A stretch of 64,000 bases of DNA. It comes from an uncultured Gemmiger sp. (GTDB lineage Bacteria; Bacillota; Clostridia; Oscillospirales; Ruminococcaceae). Under the pieces are notes generated by a model that saw only the letters and a program-made list of their open reading frames with translations, did no database searches and was not told where the DNA came from. Both the position numbers and the translations under genes were made by a program. This document shows, in pieces, positions 51,431 through 60,015 of the stretch; position 1 is the first letter of the stretch; each line of letters begins with the position of its first letter. Where the stretch lies: positions 1 to 64,000 of the forward strand of contig CALXBE010000007.1 in NCBI GenBank assembly GCA_944386495.1, written 5' to 3'.

Positions 51431-53038
<1,608 letters not shown>

Positions 53039-53171: not shown

Positions 53172-53296
53172 GCGCAAGTGGTCAGATGGACTAATTCGGG
53201 TAAGCGCCACCCGCAATTTTGGATATCTTGACCAATTCCCACCTGCAATAGTGCAAAATGTTTTTCCCTTGCGGCCACCTATTCCGGCAGTTACAA

Positions 53297-53380
53297 AACA
53301 GAAGGAGCCGGGCATCTGCCCGGCTCCTTCTGTTCCCTTGGCGACTTCTCCACAAGCAGTGGAAAAAGTTCCTGTCCCTT
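53297..53380 (-). ncRNA. Candidate small RNA or attenuated leader upstream of pckA
   Basis: Starts about 53380 from the promoter at 53387-53415 and ends at a hairpin with perfect 17-base arms (53297-53313 and 53318-53334; AACAGAAGGAGCCGGGC, loop of 4) followed by TTTG on the minus strand. The body has one small CCAC/GTGG hairpin and no start codon with a usable frame. About 85-90 nt. It could be a free sRNA or a premature stop of a second pckA transcript. Confidence 0.55.
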
Positions 53381-53386
53381 AATTGT

Positions 53387-53454
53387 ATTATATGTCTTTT
53401 TCAGGGCAGAAGCAATCAGGGGATTTTTATAGTTGGCAGTTATAAAAGTTATAT
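53387..53454 (-). promoter_or_regulatory. Promoter and upstream block homologous to the tctC promoter
   Basis: Minus-strand TTGCTT (53410-53415), 17 bases, TATAAT (53387-53392). The 42 bases at 53413-53454 match 57994-58035 of the tctC promoter at about 33 positions, in the same register to the -35 box. This implies a shared activator site. Confidence 0.7.
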
Positions 53455-53609: not shown

Positions 53610-53641
53610 CAGCGGCCCGGAAAAAGCCTTCCGGGCCGCTG
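53610..53641 (-). terminator. Terminator of the tctCBA-esterase operon
   Basis: Arms CAGCGGCCCGGAA and TTCCGGGCCGCTG with a short loop, followed on the minus strand by a T run. Confidence 0.88.
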
Positions 53642-53663: not shown

Positions 53664-54593
53664 TTATTTCAGGTACCGGTTGAAAAAATCCAGAATAACC
53701 TGTTTTGTGGAGGGCTGGAAAAACTCCCGTGTTCCATGGCCTCCGTTTTTCAGAATGTACAGCCAGGTCTGATCTTCCAGCCCCAGCTCAATCATTTTCC
53801 GGTAAAGTTCTTCACTGATCTCGCAGTCCACCAGCGGGTCCTGGTCCCCATGAAGAATGGCAAGAGGGGCCATATCCTCATGAAGATACCGGATAGAACT
53901 TGCCTTATCTGCCAGCTCCAGAATCTCCTCCCGGTTCATATCCCGGGTGATCCCCAGCAGGGCACCCTCGTGGGTCTCATCCATACTGTGCCAGCGGTAA
54001 GAAGGGTCCTGAATCAGTTCCATATTCTTTTTGGCACAGTAGCTTACATCCGCCGGGCCAAACATATCCACCGCAGCCTGGATCTTACTGGACTCCTGGC
54101 TGTACTCCCGGGACTCGCAGTCATCCTGGTTCAGCGCCATCCAGGTGGACAGATGTCCCCCCGCAGAGCGCCCTATGACTCCTATCTTATCCGGGTCCAG
54201 GTTATATTCCCGGGCATGGGCCCGGAGAAACCGCACGGCGGTTTTGCAGTCTATCAACTGGTCAGGGAAATGCCCCTGGGCGCTGCTGCGGTAATAAATG
54301 CAGGCTACGGCATACCCGGCTTCCGCCAGGAATTCCATCTCGGCTGCCATAAGGTTCTTATCGCAGCCCCTCCAGCCTGCCCCGTTGATCCAAACAATCA
54401 CAGGCTGTTTTCCGGTGGAGACCTCATCGTCCCTGCCGTCCGCCAGCCGCATTTCGCTGTTGCCGTTCTGAACCATAAGGGATAGGTACAAGTCCAGGGG
54501 GCCGCCCTCCAGGTCCGTCACATGGGAGTAGCAGATATTATCAATAAAATTTATGCTTCTTCGTTCTTTGCCGGGATCAATTACCCTACGCAT
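53664..54593 (-). CDS. Alpha/beta hydrolase (carboxylesterase, BD-FAE/Est-like)
   Basis: 309 residues from the ATG at 54593 with GAGGTG upstream; the extension to 54662 is not supported. Oxyanion-hole region WINGAGWRGCDK near residue 68, nucleophile Ser143 in GRSAGG, acid in HGDQDPLVD and a C-terminal GGHG histidine form the catalytic set. No signal peptide, so it acts in the cytoplasm. As the last gene of the tripartite transporter operon it probably hydrolyses an ester brought in by TctABC. The substrate is unknown. Confidence 0.85.
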   Translation of the reverse strand: MRRVIDPGKERRSINFIDNICYSHVTDLEGGPLDLYLSLMVQNGNSEMRLADGRDDEVSTGKQPVIVWINGAGWRGCDKNLMAAEMEFLAEAGYAVACIYYRSSAQGHFPDQLIDCKTAVRFLRAHAREYNLDPDKIGVIGRSAGGHLSTWMALNQDDCESREYSQESSKIQAAVDMFGPADVSYCAKKNMELIQDPSYRWHSMDETHEGALLGITRDMNREEILELADKASSIRYLHEDMAPLAILHGDQDPLVDCEISEELYRKMIELGLEDQTWLYILKNGGHGTREFFQPSTKQVILDFFNRYLK

Positions 54594-54678: not shown

Positions 54679-56178
54679 TCAGGCGTTCTTACCTGCTTTC
54701 CGGCTCTTGATCAGCTTCATGATCATGGGGCCAATCACAGACCAGACCGCAATGAGGATGAAGATGAGGGAGATGGGACGGGTCACGAAGGAGGTCAGGT
54801 CGCCGCGGGCGTAGGAGCAGCCCATCCGGAAGTAGCTTTCAATCTTGCCGCCCAGGATAAAGGCCAGCATAAGGGGAGTGGAAGGCATACCGAATACATC
54901 CAGCAGAATGCCCAGCATACCCAGCACCAGCACCAGGTAGACATTGAACATACTGGTGGTGGAGGAGAAAGCGCCCATGAAGCAGATGACCAGGATGGCG
55001 CTGAACAGGTAGTGGTAGGGAGCCTTCAGGAGCAGGGGGAACCACCGCTTGGTGAAAAGCTCAATAAACACGATGGCAATCGAGCTAATCATCATAATAA
55101 CATAGATATACGCAGCCAGAGTGGGATTGGTCTGGATGAACATGGGACCGGGCTGGAGGCCCTTGATGGTCATGGCAGACAGAAGCAGCACGGTGGTAGC
55201 ATCGCCGGGAATGCCCAGAGAGATCATGGGGATCATGGCGCCGCCCACGCCGGCATTGTTGGATACCTCAGTAGCCCAGATGCCGGGATCATAACCAGTG
55301 CCAAACTTTTCAGGATGCTTGTCCATCCGCTTGGCCTGACCGTAGGCAATCAGGTTGGAGATACCAGAGCCCATGCCGGGGAGGAAGCCGATGAACAGAC
55401 CGATGAGAAGGGAGACCACAATGGTCTTCATATTGTCGGTAAAGTCTTTCAGGGTCAGGCCGAAGCCGCTCAGGCTCTTGGCATCTACAGGAGGCATCTC
55501 CTGCTGGCCTTTGGCGTAGGCAGTGGCCACCTGCTGGAGGGCAAAGATGCCCATAAGGAGGACCACCACATTGATACCACCGTACAGGTTGGTATTGCCG
55601 AAGGTGAACCGGAGCTGGTTGGTGACCAGGTCGCCGCCGATGCAGCTGAGGAACAGGCCCAGGAAGGCGGAGAGCAGGCCCTTGAAAACAGAGCCGTTGG
55701 ACAGGCCTACCACCATGGTGATGGCCATCAGGCAGAGGGCAAAGTACTCCCAGGGCCCCAGCATCAGGGCCACATCAGCGATGGCGCCGGAACAGAGAAC
55801 TGCAACCACACAGGACACAAAGTTGCCGATAAAGGAGCCCATAATACCGATGGACAAGGCCTTGGCGGCCTTACCGTTCTTGGTCATGGGATAACCGTCA
55901 TAGCAGGTACCAATGGAGGCGGCAGAGCCGGGAATACCAATCAGCACGGCAGCGATGAAGGAGCCGGACACACCGCCCACATACATAGCCACCAGCATGG
56001 AGAAGCTCAGGTTGGTGTCCAGAGCAAAGGTCATGGGGAGGATCAGGGTAATACCCAGACCTCCGGAAAGGCCGGGGATCGCGCCCAGGATACATCCGAT
56101 GACACCACAAAGGATCATCATGATGAAGTTCATGGGCTGGAACATGATCCCCAATGCTTCAGGAATTGCTGCAATCAT
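54679..56178 (-). CDS. tctA: Tripartite tricarboxylate transporter, large permease TctA
   Basis: 499 residues, about 11-12 membrane helices. The two family signature regions are visible: GAIPGLSGGLGITLILPMTF near residues 33-52 with GIPGSAASIGTCYDGYP, and later GFLPGMGSGISNLIAYGQAKR. It couples substrate uptake to a sodium or proton gradient with TctB and the TctC binding protein. The family takes citrate, other carboxylates and aromatic acids. Confidence 0.94.
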   Translation of the reverse strand: MIAAIPEALGIMFQPMNFIMMILCGVIGCILGAIPGLSGGLGITLILPMTFALDTNLSFSMLVAMYVGGVSGSFIAAVLIGIPGSAASIGTCYDGYPMTKNGKAAKALSIGIMGSFIGNFVSCVVAVLCSGAIADVALMLGPWEYFALCLMAITMVVGLSNGSVFKGLLSAFLGLFLSCIGGDLVTNQLRFTFGNTNLYGGINVVVLLMGIFALQQVATAYAKGQQEMPPVDAKSLSGFGLTLKDFTDNMKTIVVSLLIGLFIGFLPGMGSGISNLIAYGQAKRMDKHPEKFGTGYDPGIWATEVSNNAGVGGAMIPMISLGIPGDATTVLLLSAMTIKGLQPGPMFIQTNPTLAAYIYVIMMISSIAIVFIELFTKRWFPLLLKAPYHYLFSAILVICFMGAFSSTTSMFNVYLVLVLGMLGILLDVFGMPSTPLMLAFILGGKIESYFRMGCSYARGDLTSFVTRPISLIFILIAVWSVIGPMIMKLIKSRKAGKNA

Positions 56179-56199: not shown

Positions 56200-56694
56200 T
56201 TACAGCATTTCAATGCCCAGCATGTCCCACAGGGAACCGGAGGGCAGCGGGATGAGGAAGCCCCGGGTAAATCCGAAGTAGCAGATGGTACCCAGGAGAA
56301 TGCTGAACACTACGGCAAAAATCACATTGATCTTTTTTTCGCCTTTCAGGGTCCAGGTAAAGACGAAGGTTCCCACCATGGAAGCGATCCAGAAGCCCAG
56401 GAACTGCATCATAATGCAGAACACCAGCGCTTCAGCCAGGATAATGGCCATCCGAATCCAGCCGGCCTTGTCCAGGTAAGGCTTGTTACCGGTTTTGACT
56501 TCCTTGGGGCCGTCAAATACCATGGAGAGAATCGCAAACAGGGCTATACCTGCCGCAGAAATGTAGGGGAAAAACTTGGGACCTGGTTCGTTGGACACCA
56601 GCCGCTCCGGGATATTGCCGGTCTCAATGACGATGAAGACCGCCAGCACCAGGAAGACGATGCCCATGATATAGGTGCGGTTGAGCTTTTTCAT
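56200..56694 (-). CDS. tctB: Tripartite tricarboxylate transporter, small permease TctB
   Basis: 164 residues with four hydrophobic segments and the TctB layout: helix 1 near residues 7-24, a short loop GPKFFPYISAAGIALFAI, then two pairs of helices. Located between tctC and tctA, 21 bases before tctA. Confidence 0.9.
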   Translation of the reverse strand: MKKLNRTYIMGIVFLVLAVFIVIETGNIPERLVSNEPGPKFFPYISAAGIALFAILSMVFDGPKEVKTGNKPYLDKAGWIRMAIILAEALVFCIMMQFLGFWIASMVGTFVFTWTLKGEKKINVIFAVVFSILLGTICYFGFTRGFLIPLPSGSLWDMLGIEML

Positions 56695-56803: not shown

Positions 56804-57904
56804 TCAGCGGACCTTAATGCCCATCTGCTCGGCACGGGTCTCCATAATACCCCATTCCCGCTGGAAGGTCTCCTGAGCGGTGTCGTAGTCCACAGGCTCC
56901 ACGAAGGTTGCCATGGCCTTGTTGCCGTCAATGTAGCTCTGCACTTCGCAGGCAGCGCAGATAGCCTCGTTTACAGCGCGGCATACATTTTCGGGAGTGT
57001 CCTTGGGAGCCCAGATGTAGTAGCTGCACTCAAAGGTGGCATCGGGAATGCCCTGCTCGGGACCGGAAGCATAGTTCTCGGTCAGCTCAGTGCCCAGCAG
57101 TTCGCTCATGGATTCCAGGGTGGAAACCTCGGGGCCAACAGTGCCCAGAATGGTCAGACGGCCGTCGGCCTCATAGCCCTGTGCGTTGGGGATGGAGCAG
57201 TTTGCAATGTCGATGGAGCCGGAAGCGGTCTGGGTCAGCTTATCAGCCTCGGAAGAGCACTGTACCCAGTTGACCATCTCGCCGTAGCCTTCGCCCAGGC
57301 CTTCGATCACGCTGTAGATGGCAGCCTGAGAAGCACCGCCCAGGGAGCAGCCGATAACGACCTCGCCGGGATGCTCGGCAATATACTCACCCAGCTCTTC
57401 AAAGTTGCTGTAGGGAGCATCGGGACGGGCAATAATGGCCTGAGGGCCGCCCAGGTTGATAACGCCTACGGTGGCGTAATCTTCCATGGAGTTTACATTG
57501 GTGCTGCCGGACAGGTACTCCAGGCAGGCACCTGCATGGTGGACCAGGAAATGGGTGCCATCGGGATCAGCATTCTTTGCATTCTCACGGCCCACCTCAG
57601 TGGTATCGTAGTTGGTGACCACGAAGTTAACTCCCTCGTACAGCTCGCCCAGAGCCTGGGTCAGATAACGGGTGTACAGGTCGGTGCCGCCACCTGCCTT
57701 GGCAGGTACATCAATGTATACAGTGGTACCGGCGGGCCACACATCTTCGATGGTCAGAGGCTCATCGGAAGCGGTGGTGTCAGCAGCTGCATCGCTGGCA
57801 GAGCTGTCAGCGGCAGGCTCTTGAGCAGCATCGCTGCTGCCGGAGCAAGCTACCAGGGACAGGCTCATGGTCAGGGCCAGCAAAAGTGCCAGAAACTTTT
57901 TCAT
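56804..57904 (-). CDS. tctC: Tripartite tricarboxylate transporter substrate-binding lipoprotein TctC
   Basis: 366 residues. Signal MKKFLALLLALTMSLSLVAC with lipobox, an acidic Ser/Ala linker to about residue 50, then the Bug/TctC fold with AKAGGGTDLYTRYLTQAL and a later SNFEELGEYIAEHPGEVVIGCSLGGAS. It captures the carboxylate outside the membrane. First gene of the operon, under a promoter that shares its -35 region with the divergent LysR gene. Confidence 0.93.
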   Translation of the reverse strand: MKKFLALLLALTMSLSLVACSGSSDAAQEPAADSSASDAAADTTASDEPLTIEDVWPAGTTVYIDVPAKAGGGTDLYTRYLTQALGELYEGVNFVVTNYDTTEVGRENAKNADPDGTHFLVHHAGACLEYLSGSTNVNSMEDYATVGVINLGGPQAIIARPDAPYSNFEELGEYIAEHPGEVVIGCSLGGASQAAIYSVIEGLGEGYGEMVNWVQCSSEADKLTQTASGSIDIANCSIPNAQGYEADGRLTILGTVGPEVSTLESMSELLGTELTENYASGPEQGIPDATFECSYYIWAPKDTPENVCRAVNEAICAACEVQSYIDGNKAMATFVEPVDYDTAQETFQREWGIMETRAEQMGIKVR

Positions 57905-57967: not shown

Positions 57968-57996
57968 ATTTTAGCTGTCACAACCTTAATTGACAA
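57968..57996 (-). promoter_or_regulatory. Promoter of the tctC operon
   Basis: Minus-strand TTGTCA (57991-57996), 17 bases, TAAAAT (57968-57973). The upstream block to 58035 is repeated in front of the candidate small RNA. Confidence 0.68.
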
Positions 57997-58018
57997 TCTG
58001 GGGATTTTTATATATTCT
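57990..58018 (+). promoter_or_regulatory. Promoter of the first tct-linked LysR gene
   Basis: TTGACA (57990-57995), 17 bases, TATTCT (58013-58018). Its -35 box covers the same bases as the -35 box of tctC on the other strand, so only one polymerase can bind at a time. Confidence 0.68.
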
Positions 58019-58026
58019 ATTTATAA

Positions 58027-58040
58027 AAGTTATATAACTT
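58027..58040. promoter_or_regulatory. Palindrome AAGTTATATAACTT, probable LysR site
   Basis: Perfect 14-base palindrome about 30 bases upstream of the tctC -35 box (the usual recognition-site distance) and just downstream of the LysR gene's own -10, where it would give autorepression. Confidence 0.65.
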
Positions 58041-58085: not shown

Positions 58086-59102
58086 ATGAATCTGCAGCAA
58101 CTTCCATACCTTTCTGCTATAGCGCAGCAGGGTAGTCTGTCTGGTGCCGCCCAGTCTTTGGGAATCACCCAGCCCGCTCTCAGCCGGTATCTCCACGATT
58201 TGGAGCACAATGTGGGAATGCCGCTCTTTTTTCGGGAGCGAAAAAAAATGTATCCCACGGATGCGGGAAAAATATACTTGCAGGCAGTGCAGGAGATGCA
58301 GGATGTGTGGGATAACACCCGCCGTTCCATCGCCCTTCTGGACTTTGAACCCACCGAGCAGCTTCGGGTGGGGCTTTCCCCTCACCGGGGTTCCCGACTG
58401 CTGGCAGCCATCTATCCGCATTTCAACCGGGAATATCCCCAGGTAAACCTGATCGCCTTGGACGGATATTTCCGGGAGGAGCGGGAACGGCTGATACAGG
58501 GAGAGGTGGATTTGGTGCTCAGCGGCGGTGATGCTTATGACGATTTGGAACATATCGACCTTACCCGGGAGGAAATGGTTCTGGCTGTTCCCGCTTTCCG
58601 CCGTCCTTCCGAAACCCCCATTGCCGACTTCCAGGAGCTTCCCCTTGCAGCGCTGGAGGATTTCAAGGACGAGGTATTCATTATGCCCAGAGGCTCCACC
58701 GCCCTCACCGACTTGATCCAGCCCCTGTTTGCAAAGGCCAATTTTCAGCCGCAGGTCGCCTTTTCCACCCCCAACATTGTCACGGAGGTCCGGTTGATCC
58801 AGGAAGGAATGGGAATCGGGGTGCTTCCCTCTTTCTATGCAACTCCGGACGACGGGATGCTCTATTATCGTTTTAAAGATCCCGTTTACTTTATGGCTCG
58901 GGTCTTTTACCGGCCCGGCTATCAGTTTTCCAAGGCGGAACGCTTTTTCCTTTATCTGATGGTCCTGTTCCTGTATCAGGACCAGGTAGGAAACGACCGG
59001 ATAACTTTCTGCTGGTGCGATTTTACCCGGGAGTTGGTGGAGGAATATGACCCCACCTGGGCACAGGAACTGAGAAGAGAGGACCCTGGTTATGGACACT
59101 AA
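58086..59102 (+). CDS. LysR-family regulator, first of a tandem pair
   Basis: 338 residues from the ATG at 58086 (AGGAAAGGAG upstream). Winged helix MNLQQLPYLSAIAQQGSLSGAAQSLGITQPALSRYLHDLEHNVG followed by the substrate-binding-like domain. It is about 30 residues longer at the C-terminus than usual. Divergent from tctC and overlapping the next LysR gene by 11 bases. Likely activates the transporter operon in response to its substrate. Confidence 0.92.
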   Translation: MNLQQLPYLSAIAQQGSLSGAAQSLGITQPALSRYLHDLEHNVGMPLFFRERKKMYPTDAGKIYLQAVQEMQDVWDNTRRSIALLDFEPTEQLRVGLSPHRGSRLLAAIYPHFNREYPQVNLIALDGYFREERERLIQGEVDLVLSGGDAYDDLEHIDLTREEMVLAVPAFRRPSETPIADFQELPLAALEDFKDEVFIMPRGSTALTDLIQPLFAKANFQPQVAFSTPNIVTEVRLIQEGMGIGVLPSFYATPDDGMLYYRFKDPVYFMARVFYRPGYQFSKAERFFLYLMVLFLYQDQVGNDRITFCWCDFTRELVEEYDPTWAQELRREDPGYGH

Positions 59103-60015
59103 AATTCTGGAATACATCATCGCCATTGCAGAGGAAAAATCCGTATCCCGGGCGGCAGACCGGTTCTACCTTTCCCAGTCGGTGGTCTCCCACCATCTGA
59201 AAAATCTGGAAGAAGAATTCGGAGAGCCCTTCTTTGTCCGGGACCCTAGGGGAATGCAGCTGACCCGCGCAGGCATTATTTTTGTAAATAACGCCCGCAC
59301 CATTCTCCATATGGAATCCCAGCTTGAAGCAAAAATGGAAGCCATGCGCCGCCAGCAGAACAAATCCATCCGTGTTATGGTTGACTCCACCAATCGGAAC
59401 TTTTTCATCCGCCGAATCCTCACCGCTTTCCGCGCGGAGTTCCCTTCTGTATCTCTGGAGCTGACTGACTGCAACTTTATTCAGGCTCACCGCACCCTTC
59501 TGACCGGAGGCACCGACCTGGCTGTCTGCTGTTCCAACCGTCAGGAATTTGAGGGATGCAGCACCCAGCTGCTGTTTCAGACCTGCCTTCATTTTCTTCT
59601 TCCCGCTGGCAAGGAGCATGATTTCTCTCTGGAGGAGTTCCGTTCTGCCCTTGAAAAGAATATGATGGTCAGTCTTCATCCTGTGGGCAGTTCCATGCGT
59701 CTGGTCGAAGAGGATCTTCTGGCCCAGGGCAAAGCCTTCCCTTCCGTCATCATGGAAAGCAGGGGCTTTTTGAATTCCCTTTCTCTGGTGCAGGATGGGC
59801 AGTGCGGTGTTTTCTATCCCCAGGCCATTACTTTCCGGGATGCCGCAAATCTCCGTGAGGTCCCCGATCTCCAGTCCCCGCTTTATACCCAGATGATCTG
59901 GCTGGAAGACACCAAGCATTCCAAAAGTTTTAACCGGCTTCTGGAGATCGTAAAGGAGGCCTATCTGGAATATCCACAGTACATTCAAAAACCCCCTGCT
60001 GTTTCCCCCACCTGA
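59092..60015 (+). CDS. LysR-family regulator, second of a tandem pair
   Basis: 307 residues. Winged helix MDTKILEYIIAIAEEKSVSRAADRFYLSQSVVSHHLKNLEEEFG, then effector domain. The start overlaps the end of the first LysR gene, so the two are co-translated. The two proteins are only distantly similar, so they probably answer different signals or form a two-step cascade. Confidence 0.92.
   Translation: MDTKILEYIIAIAEEKSVSRAADRFYLSQSVVSHHLKNLEEEFGEPFFVRDPRGMQLTRAGIIFVNNARTILHMESQLEAKMEAMRRQQNKSIRVMVDSTNRNFFIRRILTAFRAEFPSVSLELTDCNFIQAHRTLLTGGTDLAVCCSNRQEFEGCSTQLLFQTCLHFLLPAGKEHDFSLEEFRSALEKNMMVSLHPVGSSMRLVEEDLLAQGKAFPSVIMESRGFLNSLSLVQDGQCGVFYPQAITFRDAANLREVPDLQSPLYTQMIWLEDTKHSKSFNRLLEIVKEAYLEYPQYIQKPPAVSPT

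Follow-up and report, generated by a model that had tools for sequence, protein, structure and literature searches.

The 64,000-nucleotide stretch of DNA that was analysed (hereafter the window) carries on its minus strand an operon for a tripartite tricarboxylate transporter (TTT), here called tct1, in which tctC1, tctB1 and tctA1 are followed by a gene for an alpha/beta hydrolase. Two overlapping lysR genes stand divergently to tctC1, and pckA, encoding an ATP-type PEP carboxykinase, lies beyond the other end of the operon. The intergenic DNA between the hydrolase gene and pckA holds a copy (block 1) of the sequence block that precedes tctC1 (block 2), together with a predicted promoter, a predicted small RNA and a terminator hairpin (Table 1). 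The assembly containing the window (G000; 1.89 Mb, 81% complete) was compared with those of two further species of the genus, namely G110, an uncultured Clostridia MAG (contig CALXGR010000049.1), and G189, whose assembly is 77% complete and consists of 250 contigs. These three draft assemblies, with completeness between 77 and 84%, make up the genus sample.

Table 1. Positions of genes, predicted operators, promoters and RNA features in the window
Feature	Position	Strand	Basis or remark
pckA, ATP-type PEP carboxykinase	51431..53038	-	PF01293
pckA promoter-like TTGACA-16-TATAAA	53144-53171	-	read from sequence
Predicted small RNA, about 85-88 nt	53293..53380	-	no conserved reading frame
Terminator hairpin, 17 bp, then UUUG	53298..53333	-
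Predicted pairing segment UAAGGGACAGGAACUUUUUC, 5' end of RNA	53362..53381	-	complementary to tctC2
Predicted small RNA promoter, TTGCTT (53410-53415), 17, TATAAT (53387-53392)	53387..53415	-
Block 1, predicted LysR-type operator before small RNA	53413..53454	-	repeat and conservation in G110
Block 1 half-site TATAAAAATCCCC	53419-53431	-
Block 1 palindrome	53441-53453	-
Terminator-like hairpin between hydrolase and block 1	53610-53641
Alpha/beta hydrolase, last gene of operon	53664..54593	-	PF20434
tctA1	54679..56178	-	PF01970
tctB1	56200..56694	-	PF07331
tctC1, TTT substrate-binding lipoprotein	56804..57904	-	PF03401
tctC promoter, TTGTCA-17-TAAAAT	57968..57996	-	listed by consensus scan
Divergent lysR1 promoter, TTGACA (57990-57995), 17, TATTCT (58013-58018)	57990..58018	+
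Block 2, predicted operator shared by the tctC promoter and, on the opposite strand, lysR1	57994..58035	-
Block 2 half-site	58000-58012	-
Block 2 palindrome	58022-58034	-
LysR1, likely regulator of both blocks	58086..59102	+	HTH_1, LysR_substrate
LysR2, overlapping the end of lysR1	59092..60015	+	Pfam

The duplicated block and its promoters

A preliminary description of this DNA had reported that the 42 bases at 57994-58035 recur at 53413-53454. The repeat was found at these positions, with a start-to-start distance of 4581 bases, and a recount raised the number of matching positions from about 33 to 35 of 42 (83%). The identical runs of 15 and 13 bases proved exact, and both copies stand in the same register to their -35 and -10 boxes. 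The spacer between the runs has 8 bases, with differences at six of them, and the GATTG that had been said to lead into the -35 box comes after one further mismatch, its TTG already beginning that box. The duplicated block is real and far above chance. Elsewhere in the window no 42-base segment matches block 1 at more than 24 positions, order-1 simulations (30 for each of two compositions) reached a maximum of 26 of 42, and the 13-base core TATAACTTTTATA, if one mismatch is allowed, has two occurrences in the window where 0.01 would be expected. A 36-base block pattern allowing up to three mismatches finds only these two sites in the whole G000 assembly, while a looser 28-base operator pattern gives one additional three-mismatch match in each of the three genomes, not above the reversed control. 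When 396 genomes of the family were searched with the block pattern, two were positive, both of this genus; the tctC site of G189 is too altered for that pattern and was recovered by the looser one. Among the tct loci tested, duplication of the operator occurs in G000 and G110 only, being absent at 11 others (11 of 20 stretches, the rest having no placed tctC start).

Read on the minus strand, each block consists of TATAACTTTTATA, nine bases, the half-site TATAAAAATCCCC and three bases leading to the -35 box. TATAACTTTTATA is a perfect 5-3-5 palindrome of the form T-N11-A, and the half-site begins 22 bases after the start of the palindrome. Each of the five promoter copies examined has the palindrome centre at -68 relative to the predicted transcription start and the half-site at -46, with the first T replaced by C in G189. 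LysR-type sites are described as 50-60 bp long, T-N11-A frequently being found near -65 and an activation site at the -35 and -10 boxes (PMC8407307), and the blocks have the same layout, a T-N11-A dyad around -65 with a second site toward -35. The predicted operators in both blocks are likely bound by LysR1. Relatives of this protein at E <= 1e-40 were found in 7 of 396 genomes, the three of the genus at 76-100% identity and four others at 31-33%; those with at least 76% identity occur in this genus only, among the genomes searched. A scan of a genome collection with LysR1 returned the G110 and G189 contigs only, and seven protein clusters were obtained at E <= 1e-60.

At block 2, the -10 hexamer of the divergent lysR1 promoter fills six of the eight spacer bases and its -35 hexamer overlaps that of tctC by five bases, and the lysR1 hexamers at this place are identical in the three species. 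The spacer differs between the blocks because that of the tctC copy carries the divergent lysR1 -10. Hexamers of the lysR1 type are gone from block 1, where 2 and 1 of six positions match in G000 and 2 and 3 in G110. With the lysR1 promoter present in block 2 and lost from block 1, the former resembles a switch that works in both directions and the latter a copy that works in one. Block 2 resembles classical divergent promoters of LysR targets in being a shared operator with overlapping -35 boxes and T-N11-A near -65; these differ from the present case, in which a second, one-directional copy precedes a predicted non-coding RNA. The promoter of that RNA combines a perfect -10 box with a -35 box matching at three of six positions, and it was not listed by the consensus promoter scan in G000 or G110. 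Its weak -35 box appears to resemble those of activator-dependent promoters.

The predicted small RNA and its conservation

Block 1 had been proposed to drive an 85-90-nt transcript without a reading frame, ending at a 17-bp hairpin. The hairpin is as described, and the stretch from about 53380 to 53293 has no conserved ORF; the transcript itself stands as a prediction. A terminator scan lists the hairpin in G110, where the U-tail is good, but not in the window, where the tail is weak and short. Terminator-like stems of this kind, formed by GGAGCCGGGC with its complement, are shared by two or more further genera of the family (L030, L031), and a third genus (L032) has a more distant one, which makes conservation of the terminator less informative. 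A coding RNA was considered and rejected, as the RNA holds short GTG and TTG frames only, without a well-placed ribosome site, and the sole ATG with a good ribosome site in the G000 RNA is missing in G110. In Rfam, the RNA stayed below the gathering threshold, the matches around it being weak and far under threshold; the window's matches were two tRNAs only, and no GcvB.

The same description had offered, as another possibility, a conditional second transcript toward pckA. The sequence argues against this: pckA has a promoter-like region of its own, which together with the leader is 97-100% identical in G110 and is recognisable in G189, where pckA is not beside tct and no block lies nearby. 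Given this promoter, the RNA's own hairpin on the pckA side and the terminator-like hairpin between the hydrolase gene and block 1, the RNA is best read as its own transcription unit, separate from pckA. Upstream of the pckA promoter, 33 bases at 53228-53260 (minus CATTTTGCACTATTGCAGGTGGGAATTGGTCAA) show one difference in G110 and are possibly a further control site of pckA.

G110 has the whole arrangement, the RNA with its promoter and terminator as well as both blocks. Its block 1 (L015 7271-7312) differs at 2 of 42 positions, and identity by segment is 95% for block 1, 88% for the promoter, 92% for the RNA body and 95% for the terminator, with 63% for the upstream and 79% for the downstream intergenic flank. 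In G110, the stretch that runs from the block through the terminator has 11 differences in 158 positions, and the two flanks together have 73 in 242 (Fisher p = 4e-9). For the RNA (53297-53380) the corresponding count is 3 of 84 (p = 3e-8), and once the terminator is set aside, the RNA body has 1 difference in 46 positions (p = 6e-6). With only the downstream flank as reference, in which 20 of 97 positions differ, the p values become 0.0014 for block to terminator, 0.0004 for the RNA and 0.0018 for the body. In G189 the tctC promoter and an altered block 2 are retained; block 1 and the RNA were not found in its 77%-complete, 250-contig assembly. The expectation that relatives which keep the tct promoter also conserve block 1 is thus supported by G110 and not by G189. 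The RNA was found in two of the three assemblies of the genus and nowhere else among 392 family genomes. A search with an RNA model matched 35 of the 392, G000 and G110 at 114 bits and all others at 46 bits or less; three of these lower-scoring matches, when aligned, resembled the RNA in the terminator hairpin but hardly outside it.

The RNA body alone folds no better than shuffled sequences (z -0.72), and the G110 version favours a different fold. The body is therefore kept in sequence and not in fold, which suggests that it would act by pairing rather than through a structure. Nucleotides 1-13 are mostly unpaired (mean 0.71 in G000 and 0.62 in G110), and nucleotides 14-19 are mostly held in the RNA's own fold (unpaired 0.14 and 0.19). 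Features expected of a trans-acting small RNA are present, namely a promoter and a terminator of its own (both predicted), the lack of coding capacity, and conservation. The earlier suggestion of a transporter-linked small RNA, likely under the tct LysR regulator, agrees with the conserved unit, its lack of a conserved ORF and its LysR-operator geometry. Hfq (PF17209) was detected in none of the three genus assemblies (77-84% complete), whereas 5 of 14 control genomes have it. A CsrA sponge was considered, the RNA having several GGA motifs, but this was rejected, with CsrA (PF02599) detected in 0 of 3 genus assemblies versus 3 of 14 controls.

Complementarity to the second transporter operon

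G000 has a second TTT operon, tct2 (L078 4471-10684, contig C22), in which TctC, TctB and TctA were assigned by Pfam and which is flanked by genes for two metallo-beta-lactamase-fold proteins and a MarR-type regulator. At E <= 1e-80, two tctA genes were found in G000, one in tct1 and one in tct2 (three of four candidates scored). TctC1 and TctC2 share 28% identity, and both start MKKFL.

The complement of the predicted first 15 nt of the RNA was searched in the three genus genomes with at most two mismatches. Non-self matches numbered 6 in G000, 14 in G110 and 3 in G189, and the reversed control gave 9, 10 and 6; the number of matches is thus ordinary, and their positions are not. The sole non-self match with one mismatch lies at codons 3-7 of tctC2 in G110, one of the G000 matches lies at the same place, and the mismatches at the tctC2 sites are G-U pairs. 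One other G000 match, away from any start, also pairs throughout if G-U is allowed, and several other near-matches within 40 nt of the start of some open frame do not pair fully. Over its whole length, UAAGGGACAGGAACUUUUUC can pair with positions +3 to +22 of tctC2 (L078 6585-6604), within codons 1-8, at 20 of 20 positions in G000 (17 Watson-Crick, 3 G-U); in G110, 19 of 20 positions pair (18 Watson-Crick, 1 G-U). Conserved complementarity near the translation start of an unlinked gene, as is looked for in small RNAs, was accordingly found at tctC2.

To place this match among other potential targets, 401 gene starts in 483 kb of G000 and 369 in 427 kb of G110 were ranked, the sampled DNA amounting to roughly a quarter of the first genome and a fifth of the second. 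The starts came from a crude gene caller that missed the tctC2 of G110, which was therefore compared against 369 others. In G000, tctC2 leads both in energy (-27.7, followed by -26.2) and in length of contiguous run (20, followed by 14), and none of the 369 other starts in G110 reaches the -29.6 or the 16-nt run of tctC2. Shuffled segments never paired as well with tctC2 (0 of 3000 in each species). When 100 shuffles were free to choose their best start, runs as long were seen in 0 cases (G000) and 1 case (G110), and energies as good in 2 and 7. Counting the folding of both molecules lowers tctC2 to fifth of 401 in G000, and in G110 it is equalled or surpassed by 3 of the 369 other starts. Among the 24 orthologous starts present in both samples (tctC2 of G110 being added by hand), tctC2 comes first by both sums, with a lead that is narrow when folding is counted (-29.4 versus -27.6). 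The starts of tctC2 are nearly identical in G000 and G110, so that the two species are not independent evidence; in G189 no tctC2 start was recovered.

Outside tctC2, the next longest non-self run on both strands of the 483 kb of G000 is 16 nt. An 18-nt run in G110, longer than the 16 nt of tctC2, is located in the leader of another gene (L185, contig C4, minus), roughly 37 nt ahead of its start; the product resembles fructose-bisphosphate aldolase. This gene is a possible second target; a G000 counterpart of the site was not found in the sampled stretches. The linked tctC1 forms 13 contiguous pairs with the RNA in G000 and 9 in G110. Of the local starts (tctC1, tctB, tctA, the hydrolase gene, pckA, lysR1 and lysR2), tctC1 has the best z in G000, at -1.77, and the best z in G110, where the hydrolase gene was left out and the tctA start misplaced, is -0.22. 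Because the MKKFL start is shared, any RNA that is complementary to a signal-peptide start of this kind would partly pair with several genes. Lipoprotein-like starts picked by a rough filter gave runs of 20 for tctC2 and 8 for each of three others in G000, and of 6 to 11 for five in G110, tctC2 not included. Elsewhere in the RNA, the complement of the linker segment gave fewer matches than its control, several of them common to both species. In joint folds of both species, the linker GUCGC (53340-53345 minus) makes another short pairing, with GCGAC some 30 nt ahead of the start of tctC2.

A proposed RNA arm of the tct regulon

These observations lead us to favour, as somewhat more probable than its negation, a small RNA that is driven by a LysR regulator from a copied operator and represses the paralogous tctC2. 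LysR1 would sense a ligand and activate the tct1 operon from block 2 and the small RNA from block 1; the RNA would cover tctC2 from its start codon to codon 8 and block its translation, and the net effect would be that use of one transporter shuts off the paralogue. Presumably driven by the same regulator as tct1, and complementary to tctC2, the RNA would likely switch tct2 off when tct1 is on. LysR1 binding, substrate-dependent activation, synthesis of the RNA, pairing in the cell and repression are all steps that we infer from the DNA. The long pairing would fit an Hfq-free mechanism. For the full proposition, that the LysR regulator enforces mutual exclusion of the TTT paralogues through an Hfq-free RNA that silences tctC2 and spares its own tctC, our confidence is evenly balanced.

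The readings that compete with tctC2 repression differ in how much of the locus they explain. A LysR-controlled small RNA might have another main target or route, the tctC2 match being a by-product of lipoprotein signal-peptide sequence, and this we regard as unlikely, though it is the foremost of the alternatives. Conservation of the block, promoter and RNA is independent of the identity of the target, interactions elsewhere are equal or better once folding is counted, another G110 leader has the 18-nt run, and the ranking covered only part of each genome. Yet a full-length match at the start codon of the paralogue in both species is improbable as a chance event, given the 3000 shuffles, no non-self run above 16 nt occurs elsewhere in the sampled G000 DNA, and other lipoprotein-like starts pair poorly. 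It is quite improbable that the transcript from block 1 reads through a weak terminator and so adds LysR-controlled expression of pckA. The two do run in the same direction, and the U-tail in the window is too short for the terminator scan; however, the G110 hairpin has a good U-tail and is listed as a terminator, pckA has its own promoter-like region in all three species, in G189 without a nearby block, and the RNA (3 of 84 positions differing) is more conserved than the DNA between the terminator and the pckA promoter (20 of 97).

Block 1 might also serve as a decoy or an auxiliary operator, by which LysR1 is titrated or tethered, and be followed by a short transcript devoid of function. The operator is indeed the most clearly copied part, but the RNA body, with its single difference in 46 positions, is conserved as well as the operator, and the promoter hexamers keep their register; we give this reading very little credence. 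Least credible of all is a chance product or recent relic, a copied promoter before a decaying fragment. The restriction to one genus would suit it, but it is largely contradicted by conservation between species whose neighbouring intergenic DNA is at 63-79% identity.

Small RNAs of the well-studied kind that pair at the coding start mostly use Hfq, and the present case differs in that no Hfq was found in this genus. What is shared is the position, pairing with tctC2 being predicted across the coding start, and repressing small RNAs are described as usually targeting the first five codons (PMC7769764). In Bordetella pertussis, loss of hfq by mutation is reported to raise the levels of TTT proteins (PMC6627887), so that post-transcriptional control of this transporter class may have precedent; B. 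pertussis differs in having Hfq, and the available portion of that report names no small RNA for TTT proteins. In enterobacteria, the LysR-type regulator GcvA is described as controlling metabolic genes and a transporter-repressing small RNA, GcvB (PMC1557403; PMC9988348). On that account the likeness is a LysR regulator with an RNA arm directed against transporter subunits, including substrate-binding proteins. In contrast, gcvB is divergent from gcvA and has over 30 targets, whereas here the predicted RNA follows a copied operator at a distance of 4.6 kb from the regulator, has one predicted target, a paralogous TTT gene, and occurs where no Hfq was found. VtlR/LsrB of Alphaproteobacteria, as described, directly controls AbcR1, AbcR2 and VrsA, with AbcR1 acting mainly on ABC transporters (PMC7486931), again a LysR-type regulator directing small RNA against transporter genes; the phylum and the transporter class are different, and no Rfam family was matched here at threshold. 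The proposed system would differ from GcvA/GcvB and VtlR/AbcR in its copied operator, its paralogous target and its lineage. No open-licence literature title, among the matches listed, concerned a small RNA controlling a tripartite tricarboxylate transporter. If the proposal is true, sequence by itself will have been enough to name the target, the regulator and the signal context of a small RNA from an uncultured Clostridia lineage; the case would illustrate how the copying of an operator can extend a regulon by an RNA arm, and would allow repression by long pairing to be tested in a lineage where Hfq was not found.

Some further observations concern the history and the possible substrates of the two operons. 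TctC1 and TctA1 of G000 are 93% and 98% identical to those of G189, and 62% and 80% identical to those of G110; LysR1 of G000 is 95% identical to that of G110 and 76% to that of G189. It seems that tctCBA was exchanged between the conserved promoter and the conserved hydrolase gene, and that the block and the RNA stayed. Directly after the first hydrolase, G189 has a second frame of 304 aa (L068 2647-3561), presumably hydrolase-like as judged by eye; at that place G000 and G110 have no such frame. Block 1 was compared with this extra frame as its possible remnant, and no significant similarity was obtained. The metallo-beta-lactamase-fold proteins flanking tct2 and the esterase-like hydrolase of tct1 point to esters or lactones as compounds that both transporters may import.
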